DNA from: Sphingorhabdus pulchriflava
GTDB taxonomy: Bacteria; Pseudomonadota; Alphaproteobacteria; Sphingomonadales; Sphingomonadaceae
Assembly: GCF_003367235.1 (NCBI RefSeq)
Contig: NZ_QRGP01000002.1
Span: forward strand, 124,001-188,000
DNA length: 64,000 nucleotides
Direction: 5' to 3'
Of this stretch, positions 47,703 through 64,000 are shown piece after piece (position 1 is the stretch's first letter; every line of letters begins with the position of its first letter). Both the position numbers and the translations under genes were made by a program. Under the pieces are notes generated by a model. That model saw only the letters and a program-made list of their open reading frames with translations, was not told the DNA's origin and made no database searches.

Positions 47703-48296
47703 TTGTTCGACACCCGCCTGCGCCAGCTGATTGATCCTGCGCTCAACCGGATGGGCGCGTGGGTTGCACGCAGCGGTATCGGCGCGAATGCCATTACATT
47801 GACGGGTGCGGTGCTGGTCGTGCCGCTTTTCTATTCGCTGCTGCTGCAAAATTGGCTGGTGGCGCTGGCTTTGCTTGCGGCCAACCGTCTGCTCGACGGT
47901 CTCGACGGCGCGGTAGCGCGGGTCAGGGGCCCGAGCGCGTGGGGCGGCTATCTCGATAGCCTGTGCGATTATCTTTTCTACATCGCCGTGCCGCTGGGTT
48001 TCGCTTTTGCATCCCCAGCCAATGAGCTGTCGGGGCTGATTTTGGTGGCGAGCTTCACCCTCACCGCCGTCAGCTTCCTCGCGCTTGCCGCGATTCTGGC
48101 GGGACGCGATTTGGGGCACGGGGCCAAAGCCTTCACCTACTCGACCGGATTGATGGAGGGAGGCGAGACGATCGCCTTCTTCGTCGCGATGTGCCTGTTT
48201 CCGGCGCTGTTCCCGCAATTGGCATTGCTGTTTGCAGTGCTGTGCTTGGCGACGGTGATACAAAGGTTGTGGCAAGCACGAAACCTATTAGGCTGA
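47703..48296 (+). CDS. CDP-alcohol phosphatidyltransferase family membrane protein
   Basis: A 197-residue protein with about six membrane helices and the catalytic CDP-alcohol phosphotransferase motif DGLDGAVAR...GYLDSLCD (roughly residues 65-89), which holds the four Asp that bind two metals. It transfers a phosphatidyl or other CDP-linked group to an alcohol. The acceptor is not evident, and the sequence does not look like standard PgsA or PssA to me. The start appears to be TTG at 47703, 10 bases after the yceD stop; a weak ribosome site makes the start uncertain. Its end overlaps the convergent thioesterase gene by 9 bases. Confidence 0.85.
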   Translation: MFDTRLRQLIDPALNRMGAWVARSGIGANAITLTGAVLVVPLFYSLLLQNWLVALALLAANRLLDGLDGAVARVRGPSAWGGYLDSLCDYLFYIAVPLGFAFASPANELSGLILVASFTLTAVSFLALAAILAGRDLGHGAKAFTYSTGLMEGGETIAFFVAMCLFPALFPQLALLFAVLCLATVIQRLWQARNLLG

Positions 48297-58395: not shown

Positions 58396-58396
<1 letters not shown>

Positions 58397-59316
58397 TGGC
58401 AGGCAAGGGCGTGGTCGCCCTGACCGGTGCGACCGGATTTGTCGGCGGTGCGACGTTGCACCAACTGGTCGAAGCAGGATGGCAAGTGCGCGCACTTACC
58501 CGCCGCAGCCAGCAGGAAAAAGTGGGCGTCACATGGGTGAAAGGTGCGCTCGATCGGCCCGAAAGCCTCTCCCAATTGTGTGATGGTGCAGATGCCGTTT
58601 TGCACATTGCAGGCGTGGTCAATGCGCCCGATGCGGCAGGATTTGAAGCGGGCAATGTCACCGGAACCGCCCAACTGCTGAGCGCCGCCAAGGAATCCGG
58701 CATAAGCCGCTTCGTCCATGTCTCCTCTCTGTCCGCCCGCGAGCCGCAGCTTTCGGCATATGGATCGAGCAAGGCCAAAGGCGAAAAGCTGGTTGCGACC
58801 AGCATGCTCGACTGGACCATCCTCCGCCCACCCGGCGTCTATGGCCCCGGCGACACCGAAGTGCTCGAGATGTTCAAAATGGCCGCCAAGGGCTTCTGTC
58901 TGCTACCGCCTGCAGGCAAAGGATCGTGGATCCATGTCGACGATCTCGCGCGCTTGCTGGTTGCGCTGCTTCCCGCCCATGAGGATGCGACGGCACAGAT
59001 CTTCGAGGCCGATGATGGCGAACCGGGGGGGTGGGAGCATCGCCGCTTTGCCCGTGCAATTGGCTTGGCGCTGGACCGCCGTATCACAACAATTTCCGCT
59101 CCGCGCCCGCTGCTCTTTGCCGCAGCCTGGGGCGACCGGCTGGTGCGCGGTGCCAAGGCCAAGCTGACGCCCGACAGAGCCAGTTATATGAGCCATCCTG
59201 ACTGGGTCATTGATCGCGAAGCAGCACCTCCCGCAGCGCTCTGGCAGCCGCAAATTGGCACGCTCGATGGACTGAAAGCGACCGCGCGCTGGTATAAGGC
59301 GCAAGGATGGCTATAG
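58396..59316 (+). CDS. NAD(P)-dependent epimerase-like reductase, candidate ceramide reductase
   Basis: A 306-residue extended short-chain dehydrogenase with Rossmann motif GATGFVGG at 11-18 and catalytic Tyr122-x3-Lys126 (AYGSSKAKGE). It is coupled to proB (stop and start share one base) and lies 89 bases before acp-spt. In Caulobacter crescentus an epimerase-like protein next to spt (CerR) reduces 3-ketoceramide, so this is the likely role here. I start at the ATG 58396 because the longer frame would run inside proB. Assignment to CerR rests on context and family, not on a computed alignment. Confidence 0.75.
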
Positions 59317-59405: not shown

Positions 59406-59648
59406 ATGACCGACCGCAGTGAGATGTTCGACAAGCTCAAGGAGTTGATCGGGCCGTTCAACAAAAAGGGCGTCGAGCTGAGCGATAGCACAACCTTTGC
59501 CGGCGATCTCGAATGGGACAGCCTGACCGTCATGGATTTTGTCGCCGAAGTAGAAGACAGCTTTGACATCGTGATCACGATGAACTTGCAGGCCGAGATC
59601 GAAAATGTCGGCCAGCTCGTCGATGCGGTGCTGAAACTTACAAATTGA
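59406..59648 (+). CDS. acp: Acyl carrier protein for sphingolipid synthesis
   Basis: An 80-residue acidic carrier protein; the phosphopantetheine Ser39 lies in WDSLTVMDF. It starts 1 base before spt. In sphingolipid-producing alphaproteobacteria a dedicated ACP adjacent to spt carries the long-chain acyl group for condensation with serine, so it differs from the fatty-acid AcpP. The close spacing (stop 59648, next start 59650) supports co-expression. Confidence 0.92.
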   Translation: MTDRSEMFDKLKELIGPFNKKGVELSDSTTFAGDLEWDSLTVMDFVAEVEDSFDIVITMNLQAEIENVGQLVDAVLKLTN

Positions 59649-59649
59649 T

Positions 59650-60849
59650 ATGACCGACCTTTTCTCCAAATTCGATCCGCTCATCGAACAACGTCGCGCG
59701 CTGCTCGAAACCGGCCTCACCGACCCGTTCAATCTGGTGATGGAAAAGGTGCTGTCACCCACCGTCGCCATCTGCAACGGGCGCGAAACGATCCTGCTCG
59801 GCACCTATAATTATATGGGCATGACCTTTGATGAAGATGTCATCGCTGCCGGCAAACAGGCTTTTGACGATTTCGGCGCAGGCACGACCGGAAGCCGCGT
59901 TCTTAACGGCACCTTCCATCCGCATCGCGATGTAGAGGCGGCGCTGCGCGAATTTTACGATATGGACCATGCAATGGTCTTTTCGACCGGCTATCAGGCC
60001 AATCTGGGCATCATCAGTACGATTGCCGGCAAGGGCGACTATATCATCCTCGATATCGACAGCCATGCGTCGATTTACGATGGCTGCAAGATGGGCGATG
60101 CCGAAATCGTTGCTTTCCGTCACAATGATGTCGGGGCGCTGGAAAAGCGGCTGAAACGCCTGCCTGCCGAAGCGGGTAAGCTGGTGGTTCTCGAAGGCGT
60201 CTATTCGATGCTCGGCGATGTCGCGCCGTTGAGAGAGATGGTCCGCATCTCGAAAGAGCATGGCGCGATGGTGCTGGTCGATGAAGCGCATTCGATGGGC
60301 TTTATCGGCGCGAATGGCCGCGGCGTTGCCGAGGAGCAGGGCTGCATCGATGACGTTGATTTCATCATCGGCACTTTCTCGAAAAGCGTCGGCACCGTGG
60401 GCGGCTTCTGCGTTTCGAACCATCCCAAGTTCGAAATTCTCCGCCTCGTTTGCCGCCCTTATGTCTTCACCGCTGCCCTGCCACCCAGCGTGATGGCGTC
60501 GAGCGCGACATCGGTGCGCAAGCTGATGCACGGCAGCAACAAGCGCGCGCATCTGTGGGAAAATTCGAAGACATTGCACAAGGGGTTGCGCGATCTTGGC
60601 TTCCAGCTGGGCACCGACGAACCGCAGTCTGCGATCATCGCCGTCATCATGCCCGATCTGGAACGCGGTGCGATGATGTGGGAAGCGCTGCTGAAGGAAG
60701 GCCTTTACGTCAACCTTGCTCGCCCACCGGCAACCCCCGCCGGTATGACGCTGCTCCGCTGCTCTCTCTGTGCCGAGCATACAAACGAGCAGGTGCAGGA
60801 CATTCTGGATCGGTTTGAGCGGGCAGGCAAAGCAGTCGGCATCATCTAA
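59650..60849 (+). CDS. spt: Serine palmitoyltransferase
   Basis: A 399-residue PLP-dependent alpha-oxoamine synthase. The PLP Schiff-base Lys245 is in GTFSKSVGTVGGF, with DEAHSMGFIG (Asp211, His214) and the cofactor-stacking His139 in DSHASIYDG. It condenses serine with an acyl thioester to 3-ketosphinganine, the first step of sphingolipid synthesis. The family also includes BioF and KBL. I choose SPT because of the adjacent ACP and reductase and because the length (about 400) fits the soluble bacterial SPT homodimer. This gene is the main reason to call the host a sphingolipid producer. Confidence 0.92.
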   Translation: MTDLFSKFDPLIEQRRALLETGLTDPFNLVMEKVLSPTVAICNGRETILLGTYNYMGMTFDEDVIAAGKQAFDDFGAGTTGSRVLNGTFHPHRDVEAALREFYDMDHAMVFSTGYQANLGIISTIAGKGDYIILDIDSHASIYDGCKMGDAEIVAFRHNDVGALEKRLKRLPAEAGKLVVLEGVYSMLGDVAPLREMVRISKEHGAMVLVDEAHSMGFIGANGRGVAEEQGCIDDVDFIIGTFSKSVGTVGGFCVSNHPKFEILRLVCRPYVFTAALPPSVMASSATSVRKLMHGSNKRAHLWENSKTLHKGLRDLGFQLGTDEPQSAIIAVIMPDLERGAMMWEALLKEGLYVNLARPPATPAGMTLLRCSLCAEHTNEQVQDILDRFERAGKAVGII

Positions 60850-60858
60850 CCTGCAGCG

Positions 60859-61719
60859 ATGACGAAGCGTTACACCCTCACTTTATCGTGCCCGGATGCT
60901 CCGGGGCTGGTTGCTGCTGTCTCCGGCTTTCTCGCCAATCATGGTTGCAACATTCTTGAATCGCAGCAGTTTAACGACCGTGAAGATGCGCAATTCTTTA
61001 TGCGGGTGGTGTTTGAAGCTTTACCGGGAGCGCCTGACGCCGATACCCTGAGAGCACAATTTGCGCCTTTGGCGGAGCGGTTGGCGATGCATTGGCAGAT
61101 CCGCGATGCTGATGCGCCGCGCAAGGTGTTGCTTATGGTCTCCAAATTCGACCATTGCCTCGAAGACCTGCTCTATCGTGTGCGGGTCGGGGAGTTGAAG
61201 ATGGATGTGGTGGCGATCGCCTCCAACCATCCACGCGATTCCTCGAAACCTTCGCTGGTCGGCGACATTCCCTGGCACCATTTTCCAATTTCGCCAGAAA
61301 CCAAGTCTGAACAGGAAGCTGCGATCAAGGCGCTGATCTCGGAGACCGGGGCGGAACTGGTCGTGCTGGCGCGGTATATGCAGATATTGTCTGATGATTT
61401 TGCTAGCTTCCTTTCTGGCCGCTGCATCAACATCCACCACAGCTTCCTGCCTGGCTTCAAGGGTGCCAAGCCCTATCATCAGGCGCATGCACGCGGGGTG
61501 AAGATGATCGGCGCGACCGCCCATTATGTCACCGCCGACCTTGATGAAGGTCCGATCATCGCACAGGATGTCGAAGCGGTCAGCCATGCCGATACTGCGG
61601 AGGATCTTGTGGCGAAGGGCCGTGATATCGAGAGCCGCGTGCTCGCAGCCGCCGTTCGCGACCATCTGGAGGATCGGGTGCTGCTCAATGGCAACAAAAC
61701 CGTCGTTTTCCGCAGCTAG
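60859..61719 (+). CDS. purU: Formyltetrahydrofolate deformylase
   Basis: A 286-residue enzyme with an N-terminal ACT domain ([20 protein letters not shown], about 1-80) and a formyltransferase-like hydrolase domain with [19 protein letters not shown] and GATAHYV. It hydrolyses 10-formyl-THF to formate and THF and balances the one-carbon pool. It starts 9 bases after spt, so it probably shares its transcript, without an obvious link in function. Its stop shares a CTAG with the stop of the convergent gene. Confidence 0.95.
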
Positions 61720-62576
61720 CGCACTGCGCCTTTGGCGAGCAATTTGGGAACCAGCACGAAGGCCGCGACAAGCGGCCATTTTCGTTGCCAGGGCTTTATC
61801 TCGATCTGCGTCCCCGCATGGCGATTTATCTTCCACGCGAGGTAGTCAATCCCCCCCGAATAGGTGAAGGCAGCCTTGGCGAGGCGGGCAACCGAGAGCA
61901 ATTTGCCTTCGATCCGGCGCCGGGCCCAGCTGCCGCGCACCGCATTTGGTGGGATGGCTGCCATTGCTGGCGCGCTAAATTGCTCATAGCGTGCCGGGTC
62001 CGCGTCCACCACCGAGTTGGAACGGCTTTTGCGCTCCGCGCGCAGTTCGACCGAATAGGTCAAGGCAAAGGCACGGCGCCACCAGTCGAGCGGCGCTTCT
62101 CCATCAATTGATCCGGCGGCGGCCAGCAAAGTCGGCGCGGCGCGAGAAACAGAATCGATGGCGGCCTGCTGCGCTGTCGCATCCACACTCCACACCAGCC
62201 GTGAGGGTTGCGCAAAGCGGGCCCAGACGGAGACATTGCGCGTGTCAGGGCTGTTCAGCCGGCGAAAGTCCTCCTCGCTCAACACCGCATATTTGGCCAT
62301 CAGCCCGTCATGTTCAAATGGAAAGACATTAGGCGGGATCAGTCTATTTGCCCGCGCCAGCCAGCTTTTGCCATATGCTGCTTCATAGTTCGAAACGATC
62401 AGGTAGAAATCGAGCATCAGCCCGTCGAGCTGGCTTTCGCGCAGGCAACTGCCGTAAAATAAAATAGCCCGCGAGGCCCCTGGATATTTCGCCGCCAATG
62501 CCGCTGCCATTGCGGACACTTGAGGTTCGACAGGCGCGGCCAATTCCTCGGCGACAAGATGTTCAAGCGAAGACAT
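61716..62576 (-). CDS. Tam41/Mmp37-like lipid cytidylyltransferase candidate
   Basis: A 286-residue protein with a nucleotidyltransferase-fold signature like mitochondrial Tam41: FYGSCLRES at 40-48, [10 protein letters not shown] at 53-62 (Asp-Phe in the place of DxD, as in Tam41), then [18 protein letters not shown] at 83-100 and [12 protein letters not shown] at 118-129. These align in order with recalled Tam41 landmarks (GSG, MIDF, IKYGVIS, AGRLQKPV). Tam41 makes CDP-diacylglycerol from phosphatidate and CTP. It is the last gene of a minus-strand operon after a lipid kinase, 40 bases away, and converges on the spt operon. A ceramide-1-phosphate or sphingoid-phosphate substrate is therefore plausible. 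I did not run a search; the call is my recognition. Confidence 0.6.
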
Positions 62577-62616
62577 GGGCGTTTTCTAGCGCCTTTTTAG
62601 CCGAAGTGCGAACGCT

Positions 62617-63588
62617 TCAAGCTGCGAGCTTGAGGAAGGGGACCGGTGCAGTTGAGCGCAGGAAAATCGGGCGCTCGTTGTTGGCCTCGAAAACCTCACC
62701 ATCGAGAATGACGCTGCTATTCTCTCCGTCGATGCGGATAACATCGCCCTGTTCAAAATGTACGCCGTCGAGTTGCCGCTGGCCCAGCTTGCCCCGCAAC
62801 GACGCAGCGATCATGCGGAACATGGCAGGTGGTCGGTTGTCGACCGCGAGCAGTTTCATGAATCCGGTCTTGCCAGATGGTCCGGCTTGTCCGCCAAGCA
62901 ACAGTTTTTCGAGCGTGGTGACAATCAGCACCGAGAAACTGCCCTGCAATTCCCCGCCGCGAATGAAGGATACACGCACCGGGCGCGACTTCTGCGGAAG
63001 GAAATCTGCCTTCACACCGAATATGGCTGAAAAAAGGACGGCCATCGCGGTCAGGAAATGGCTGATGCCGTTGGGCAGGCCCAGCGGGTAAATCTTGTTG
63101 CGGCAGTATAATATGGTTTCGGCCAGCCCGGCACCACCCAGAAACATTCCGAGCACCGGTCGCGAGGATTCGTTGCCGTCACTAAGCGCAATCAGTTCGC
63201 GCACTACAATATGCGCCGAGAGATCGCCTTTCGCGACCTGAACGATCTGGGCCAGCGCCTCGAGCGGGGCACCGTCGGCACCCAGATCGAGCGCAATAAG
63301 GTTGGTCTTGCCATTGGGCAATACCGCGACCGGTGGCGGAACACCTTCGAAATGACCGCCATGGTAGATTTCGGTCAAGGCGGCTTGGACGGTTCCGTCG
63401 CCGCCGTTGATGACGAGCACTTTGGGTTTGACACGCGCGATCATTTCCAATGCGCGCGCAATCTGGCCGATTTCCTCCACTTCATAGTGAAAGACATCAG
63501 GATTGTCCGCGCAATAGCTCCGCACTTGCGGCAACAGCGATTTGTTGCCGGTCGAGTGTGGATTGGAAAGGAGCGCGACTAGAGCCAA
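62617..63588 (-). CDS. Diacylglycerol-kinase-family lipid kinase (candidate sphingoid/ceramide kinase)
   Basis: A 323-residue DAGK/LCB5-type lipid kinase with GGDGT at 62-66 (VINGGDGTVQAAL), the nucleotide-loop SNPHSTGNKS at 8-17 and VLPNGKTNLIALDLG for the conserved lipid-kinase loop. The enzyme phosphorylates a lipid hydroxyl with ATP. In Caulobacter a kinase of this family near spt (CpgB) makes ceramide-1-phosphate; the setting here is alike. It starts 14 bases after the DUF2141 gene. It could also be a plain diacylglycerol kinase. Confidence 0.82.
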   Translation of the reverse strand: MALVALLSNPHSTGNKSLLPQVRSYCADNPDVFHYEVEEIGQIARALEMIARVKPKVLVINGGDGTVQAALTEIYHGGHFEGVPPPVAVLPNGKTNLIALDLGADGAPLEALAQIVQVAKGDLSAHIVVRELIALSDGNESSRPVLGMFLGGAGLAETILYCRNKIYPLGLPNGISHFLTAMAVLFSAIFGVKADFLPQKSRPVRVSFIRGGELQGSFSVLIVTTLEKLLLGGQAGPSGKTGFMKLLAVDNRPPAMFRMIAASLRGKLGQRQLDGVHFEQGDVIRIDGENSSVILDGEVFEANNERPIFLRSTAPVPFLKLAA

Positions 63589-63602: not shown

Positions 63603-64000
63603 TCACATATACTTCATCTTCACCGAGATCGTGGTGACCCCGCTGCCGACATAGAAACTGACTTTGCTCACCGATGGCTTGCCGAGATTGAGGACATTTA
63701 TCGACGGATTATTGGAAAATCCGCCGCCATCCTGCGAGATATCGGTTTTACCATTGGCATTGGCGTCGTGCCGCACAGCGATGGCATAGTTGCCAACCGA
63801 AGCCACGGGCACGCAGAAGGTCATATTTCCTGCACGTGCGCTGGTTTCGACGCGGTTGAGCCAACGCCCTTTTGCTAGCCACGCCGATTGGGTGGCGGGA
63901 TAGCTTTGAACGCGCATACGACCCGACGAATTTTTGATTCCGCTGACCACCACCTTGATGGCGGGGCCATTGCTTCCAGTGCAGCGGCTCATATCATTGG
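63603..64000 (-). CDS. DUF2141-family protein (5' end outside window)
   Basis: At least 132 residues of an open minus-strand frame that continues past the right edge; the ATG at 63992 is probably internal because DUF2141 proteins carry an exported N-terminus. The stretch IKVVVSGIKNSSGRMRVQSYPA, AVRHDANANGKTDIS and SVKMKYM fits the secreted beta-sandwich DUF2141 pattern. Its function is unknown. It heads the operon with the lipid kinase and the Tam41-like gene, which hints at an envelope-lipid role. Confidence 0.8.
   Translation of the reverse strand, partial: NDMSRCTGSNGPAIKVVVSGIKNSSGRMRVQSYPATQSAWLAKGRWLNRVETSARAGNMTFCVPVASVGNYAIAVRHDANANGKTDISQDGGGFSNNPSINVLNLGKPSVSKVSFYVGSGVTTISVKMKYM

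Follow-up and report, generated by a model that had tools for sequence, protein, structure and literature searches.

A probable sphingomonad counterpart of the Caulobacter cpgB-cpgC gene pair in Sphingorhabdus pulchriflava, with a Tam41-like fold predicted for CpgC

In Caulobacter, a cluster spanning CC_1168-CC_1152 has been described that contains spt (CC_1162), CC_1161, a ceramide kinase (CC_1160), a cytidine diphosphate (CDP)-alcohol transferase (CC_1159), a phosphoesterase (CC_1158), LptF2/LptG2 (CC_1156/CC_1155), a ceramide synthase (CC_1154) and a CofC-like protein (CC_1153) (PMC11324152). CC_1161 is needed for the lipids CPG (ceramide phosphoglycerate) and CPG2, and its mutants lose phosphosphingolipids; it was proposed to make a nucleoside diphosphate (NDP)-activated ceramide, and its InterPro domain suggests a CDP-diacylglycerol synthase (PMC11324152). 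The kinase, CpgB (CCNA_01218), is a ceramide kinase (PMC10331486). Two papers of 2025 and 2026 assign CpgD and CpgA to the second phosphoglycerate, the only unit for which CpgD is needed, and do not settle how CpgC works (PMC12275187, PMC13228409). Zymomonas has a shortened gene set, and sphingomonads scatter these genes (PMC11324152). Here we analyzed a stretch of 64,000 nucleotides from Sphingorhabdus pulchriflava (bases 124001-188000 of contig C2, NZ_QRGP01000002.1, in a genome of 3.22 Mb; hereafter the window), in which a predicted Tam41-like cytidylyltransferase gene and a lipid kinase gene lie near spt.

On the basis of its position, we identified the 286-residue protein encoded at 61716-62576 (minus strand) as CpgC (CC_1161/CCNA_01219). 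As in Caulobacter crescentus, the gene lies between spt and a probable ceramide kinase gene (62617-63588, minus strand, 323 residues, TTG start), and, as CC_1161 does, it adjoins both within a cluster of cerR-acp-spt and lptF-lptG-ceramide synthase. Plasmid p1-AD2 of Roseomonas mucosa carries an annotated gene row of the Caulobacter type (lined up by eye), with counterparts to which the window proteins are similar; the protein in the CpgC position there is 40% identical to that of the window. We propose, with a probability of roughly 0.65, that the window pair is the sphingomonad version of cpgB-cpgC from Caulobacter and that CpgC is a metal-dependent cytidine triphosphate (CTP):ceramide-1-phosphate cytidylyltransferase with a Tam41 fold. 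In such a pathway, the kinase would convert ceramide to ceramide-1-phosphate, as was shown for Caulobacter CpgB (PMC10331486), and CTP would sit between the nucleotidyltransferase domain of CpgC (YGS, the single conserved acidic residue D56, and K95) and its second domain. The lipid phosphate would then attack the alpha-phosphate of CTP, yielding CDP-ceramide and pyrophosphate, and a CDP-alcohol-type transferase would exchange cytidine monophosphate for the head group, which is glycerate or phosphoglycerate in Caulobacter. The original prediction, made from the window alone, had regarded a CDP-activated sphingolipid as a step new for bacteria; this is not a new idea, as shown by the NDP-activated ceramide already proposed for CC_1161 (PMC11324152). 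The gene pair is real, conserved and well placed; we regard it as an already known gene whose mechanism is unsolved, and not as a new system.

Both open reading frames (ORFs) were found where they had been predicted, with the landmarks YGS (residues 41-43), LMLDF (53-57) and KYAVLS (95-100) in CpgC and GGDGT in the kinase. The 20-member CpgC alignment (A1) includes the window protein, to which the relatives are 31-43% identical, and has 23 invariant columns: Y41, G42, S43, D56 and K95, assigned to the core, together with A97; P81, P82, W118, R120, Q123 and P124; E177, R179 and E181, assigned to the second domain; T238; and R231, L232, K234, Y245, K249, H253 and P268, which form a family-specific C-terminus. 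Given this invariance, the landmark motifs of CpgC are not due to chance. As had been anticipated, a structure model of the protein displayed a Tam41-like fold, with a nucleotidyltransferase domain and a second domain as in solved Tam41, and its best structural match was CTP-bound Tam41. D56 is the sole invariant acidic residue before residue 125, as judged from the alignment rather than by superposition on Tam41, and of the three acidic residues in the nucleotidyltransferase core, Tam41 itself has just one (PMC11646218). CpgC resembles the CDP-diacylglycerol synthase Tam41/TAMM41 both in its two domains and in its one conserved acidic core residue. However, it differs in falling under the Pfam threshold for Tam41, in its identity of 14-16% to the Tam41 structures (bacterial 7ecd and S. 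pombe 6ig4/6ig2), in a conserved C-terminal block of its own (Y245, K249, H253 and P268) beyond the 7ecd alignment, and in its company with spt, described below. Helices 242-254 and 268-281 of the model, which we looked at as candidates for a C-terminal membrane-binding helix, also fall outside the 7ecd alignment. With CdsA (CTP_transf_1), CpgC would share the synthesis of a CDP-lipid, but CdsA belongs to an unrelated integral membrane family (PMC7018664), and the window protein did not match the CdsA profile PF01148. Single-sequence searches with the 286-residue protein against NCBIfam, Pfam and PDB sequences gave no match, and profiles of the CpgC family, as well as two single relatives used as queries, gave weak matches only and no Tam41 among PDB sequences.

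We examined the co-occurrence of cpgC with spt in 190 genomes of the same class, which were searched with the 286-residue protein and then with a profile of 20 family members, the window protein among them. Both searches detected cpgC in 21 genomes, and all 21 contained spt, in agreement with the original prediction, compared with 25 of 190 overall (Fisher p 2.9e-24, which ignores relatedness). The limit used for counting spt (NF047603 at E<=1e-100) is loose, and E. coli also matches at it; the 25 matches all scored at least 432 bits, and only three exceeded the curated cut-off of 670, which Caulobacter vibrioides also misses. Repeated draws of these 190 genomes, and of the 119 family genomes used below, were taken as the same genomes (handles agree where listed). 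For 16 of the 21 genomes, the window genome included, spt was convergent with cpgC and no more than 2 kb from it; it lay at 8.3 kb in one genome, and the best spt match was on another contig in four.

Neighbourhoods were compared in genome_contigs, using the best 80 loci of at least 588 relatives, which by title are nearly all from sphingomonads; 54 of them exceed 20 kb and the others end at contig ends. ORFs in the neighbourhoods run from stop to stop, so that their lengths are upper bounds, and genes were detected only by BLAST, with hidden Markov models (HMMs) added for the kinase recheck. The neighbours included serine palmitoyltransferase (SPT; 68 loci), acyl carrier protein (ACP; 66), LptF (68), LptG (68), a DUF2141 protein (58) and a GNAT-like protein (51). 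LptF/LptG adjoin the cluster in these 68 loci as LptF2/LptG2 do in Caulobacter. In the four spt-positive class genomes that lack cpgC, no CpgB-like kinase was found in the 20-kb stretch around spt. One of these four, from the family of the window organism (L200), retains the reductase, ACP, SPT, LptF, LptG and GNAT-like genes in window order; DUF2141, the kinase and cpgC are missing, and a desaturase-like gene precedes the GNAT-like gene. The kinase-cpgC pair is apparently gained and lost against a constant background of ceramide synthesis, as would be expected of a head-group step.

The predicted adjacency of a lipid kinase to cpgC was observed in 71 of the 80 genome_contigs loci and in 17 of 20 class neighbourhoods (L113-L132), corresponding to 17 of 19 genomes; the class neighbourhoods without it are L121, L130 and L125, the last being a second piece of the L124 genome. 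The window kinase passes Pfam DAGK_cat (PF00781; 50.3 bits, cut-off 23.6) and shares 25-31% identity with its counterparts at 17 other loci. By analogy with CpgB (CC_1160/CCNA_01218), to which it is similar as a DAGK_cat protein with GGDG that adjoins cpgC, it is a probable ceramide kinase. Eight of the nine genome_contigs loci without the kinase are titled Sphingobium, and six of these exceed 20 kb; the kinase is therefore elsewhere or absent there. The Sphingobium-titled loci with no CpgB-like kinase in the stretch covered are L087, L090, L096, L097, L103, L105, L109 and L112.

The partner that would use CDP-ceramide was sought among the CDP-alcohol transferases. Four are encoded in the window genome, their open frames measuring 194, 275, 200 and 222 residues, and were labelled by reading as one PgsA-like, one PssA-like and two others; none is of the size of CpgA (364-429 residues in the open frames of other loci). 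Nine of the 20 class neighbourhoods contain CpgA-type genes. In contrast to the long Caulobacter-type clusters of Roseomonas and Diaphorobacter, the window plus its flank (locus L031) yielded no relative of their CpgA, phosphoesterase, CC_1153-like, CpgD-like or acyl-AMP ligase proteins at E<=1e-4, CpgA alone being sought genome-wide. The transferase inside the window (47703-48296, plus strand) was considered as the user of CDP-ceramide and rejected; neither it nor the other unassigned one, at C1:1952324, tracks cpgC when overlaps are counted by eye from lists (E<=1e-10 in both searches). The former was found in 11 of 91 cpgC-positive and 2 of 28 cpgC-negative family genomes, and the latter, present in 32 of 119, in 24 and 8 of these genomes, respectively. 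The distribution of the window transferase is patchy (13/119), and its best NCBIfam match is archaetidylinositol phosphate synthase, at 77.9 bits below the cut-off of 180. The partner would be either a housekeeping enzyme able to accept CDP-ceramide or a protein of another family. We also observed, in L113, L115, L124 and L130, a second CDP-alcohol transferase beside LptG. Over the region they have in common, it is 32-39% identical to the CpgA-type transferase of its own locus, and it could be the missing CPG-forming enzyme in these genomes.

Other activities of CpgC were weighed against cytidylyl transfer to ceramide-1-phosphate. The earlier published model, as reported in PMC11324152, has a glycerate unit joined directly to ceramide-1-phosphate with no CDP-ceramide intermediate, and the step is still drawn as an unidentified mechanism (PMC12275187, PMC13228409). 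We consider this very unlikely for CpgC, as the reaction seems energetically not very favourable (PMC11324152), and a nucleotidyltransferase fold whose best match is CTP-bound Tam41 points to nucleotide transfer. It is similarly improbable that CpgC is a second CDP-diacylglycerol synthase acting on phosphatidate and that its neighbour is a diacylglycerol kinase: although Tam41 makes CDP-diacylglycerol and the kinase matches DAGK_cat, cpgC accompanies spt in each of the 21 genomes, CpgB of Caulobacter phosphorylates ceramide (PMC10331486), CC_1161 mutants lose phosphosphingolipids (PMC11324152), and the genome already has a separate CdsA, a single PF01148 match at C1:1395884-1396276. The original prediction had named activity on phosphatidate only, in a genome without CdsA, as a finding that would refute it; this case does not apply as put, since CdsA is present. 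Nucleotidyltransferase folds take several nucleotides and acceptors. This, together with a window kinase whose substrate is only presumed, would suit an enzyme that activates a different phosphorylated lipid of the pathway, such as a phosphorylated sphingoid base, or that uses a nucleotide other than CTP; such an enzyme is nevertheless unlikely, because Caulobacter CpgB takes ceramide (PMC10331486) and the cluster also contains SPT-like and ceramide-synthase-like genes.

Several points weigh against the proposed cytidylyltransferase. The fold alone does not fix the substrate of CpgC, and identity with the Caulobacter protein was inferred from gene order, not from sequence alignment. A search against the Tam41_Mmp37 profile had been suggested as a check; the window protein gave no match to PF09139 at E<=1, and among the 20 family members, two matched at that limit and one exceeded the cut-off of 24 (L011 at 28.8 bits; L017, at 23.2 bits, did not). 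In named control genomes, including Caulobacter vibrioides, PF09139 found a match only in Methanocaldococcus, but such genome searches are weak: one of them missed genome G123, even though a direct scan of its protein L011 gives a score above the cut-off. No kinase was detected beside cpgC in 9 of the 80 genome_contigs loci, on which BLAST and HMM agree, and L121 and L130 likewise lack one. Across the 119 family genomes, the two transferases above do not track cpgC. To our knowledge, no activity of CpgC has been measured. The literature searched, which left most subscription journals outside, contained no mention of CDP-ceramide, no report linking Tam41 with ceramide or sphingolipids in bacteria, and no test of CpgC activity.

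The remaining genes of the locus were assigned as follows. On the plus strand lie an NAD-dependent epimerase/reductase in the CerR position (58396-59316; PF01370), with 33-39% identity to the short-chain dehydrogenase/reductase (SDR) of the Roseomonas and Diaphorobacter clusters, an ACP in the AcpR position of the spt locus (59406-59648; PF00550) and spt itself (59650-60849; NF047603, 800 bits, cut-off 670). The pair is convergent with acp-spt, as predicted, but not immediately next to it: purU (60859-61719, plus strand; PF00551 and ACT) sits between spt and cpgC in this lineage, its 3' end overlapping that of cpgC; spt and cpgC are usually closer neighbours in relatives. The intervening purU differs from the CpgC locus of Caulobacter; purU, present in only 2 of the 80 genome_contigs loci, is not thought to be part of the pathway. 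On the far side of the kinase, a conserved DUF2141 protein (63603-64000, minus strand; PF09912, 79.5 bits) runs past the window end (whole ORF 158 residues, L031:7603-8079), and it is followed by LptF and LptG (L031:8201-10522, both above NCBIfam cut-offs) and a 387-residue GNAT-like protein (L031:12249-13412). The last shares 41% identity with the protein that occupies the ceramide synthase place in Roseomonas and is named as the putative ceramide synthase by position only. The best match of CpgC in named genomes was from an uncultured Sphingorhabdus (88% identity; locus L033, the window's own genome possibly having been left out).

Related clusters were also observed on plasmids. Diaphorobacter pDCB2 (NZ_CP065408.1; L196, L198), typed conjugative, IncP and with mercury resistance, carries a seemingly whole phosphosphingolipid set: an SPT-like protein (43% identical to that of the window), ACP, fatty acyl-AMP ligase, SDR, a ceramide-synthase-like protein, kinase, CpgC, two CDP-alcohol transferases, a CpgD-like protein and LptF/LptG. 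Thirteen Roseomonas plasmids, several of which come from human samples, carry relatives of cpgC, including p1-AD2 (NZ_CP025188.1; L195), where CpgC of the cluster is annotated as a hypothetical protein. Pseudomonas sp. JS425 pPNP1 (NZ_CP073662.1; L199), IncP and typed non-mobilizable, has kinase, CpgC, LptF/LptG, a pyridoxal phosphate enzyme in the spt position, a carrier protein and an acyl-AMP ligase, with a class 1 integron with sul1 not far off.

The Tam41 fold turns a published guess on CpgC into a sharp test, in which CTP and ceramide-1-phosphate are the substrates and D56 and K95 the residues to probe. If the proposed activity is true, bacteria make a CDP-sphingolipid, and two locus shapes make sense: one is long and includes CpgA, phosphoesterase and CpgD-like genes, and the other is short and limited to the kinase and CpgC. 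A bolder and rather doubtful extension is that the CpgC family, as an offshoot of Tam41, is the first CDP-ceramide synthase, and that in sphingomonads without CpgA, CDP-ceramide may be used by the housekeeping synthases for phosphatidylglycerophosphate or phosphatidylserine, so that these bacteria would make ceramide phosphoglycerol, phosphoserine or phosphoethanolamine where Caulobacter has ceramide diphosphoglycerate. Ceramide would then enter the same CDP-lipid logic as glycerophospholipids.
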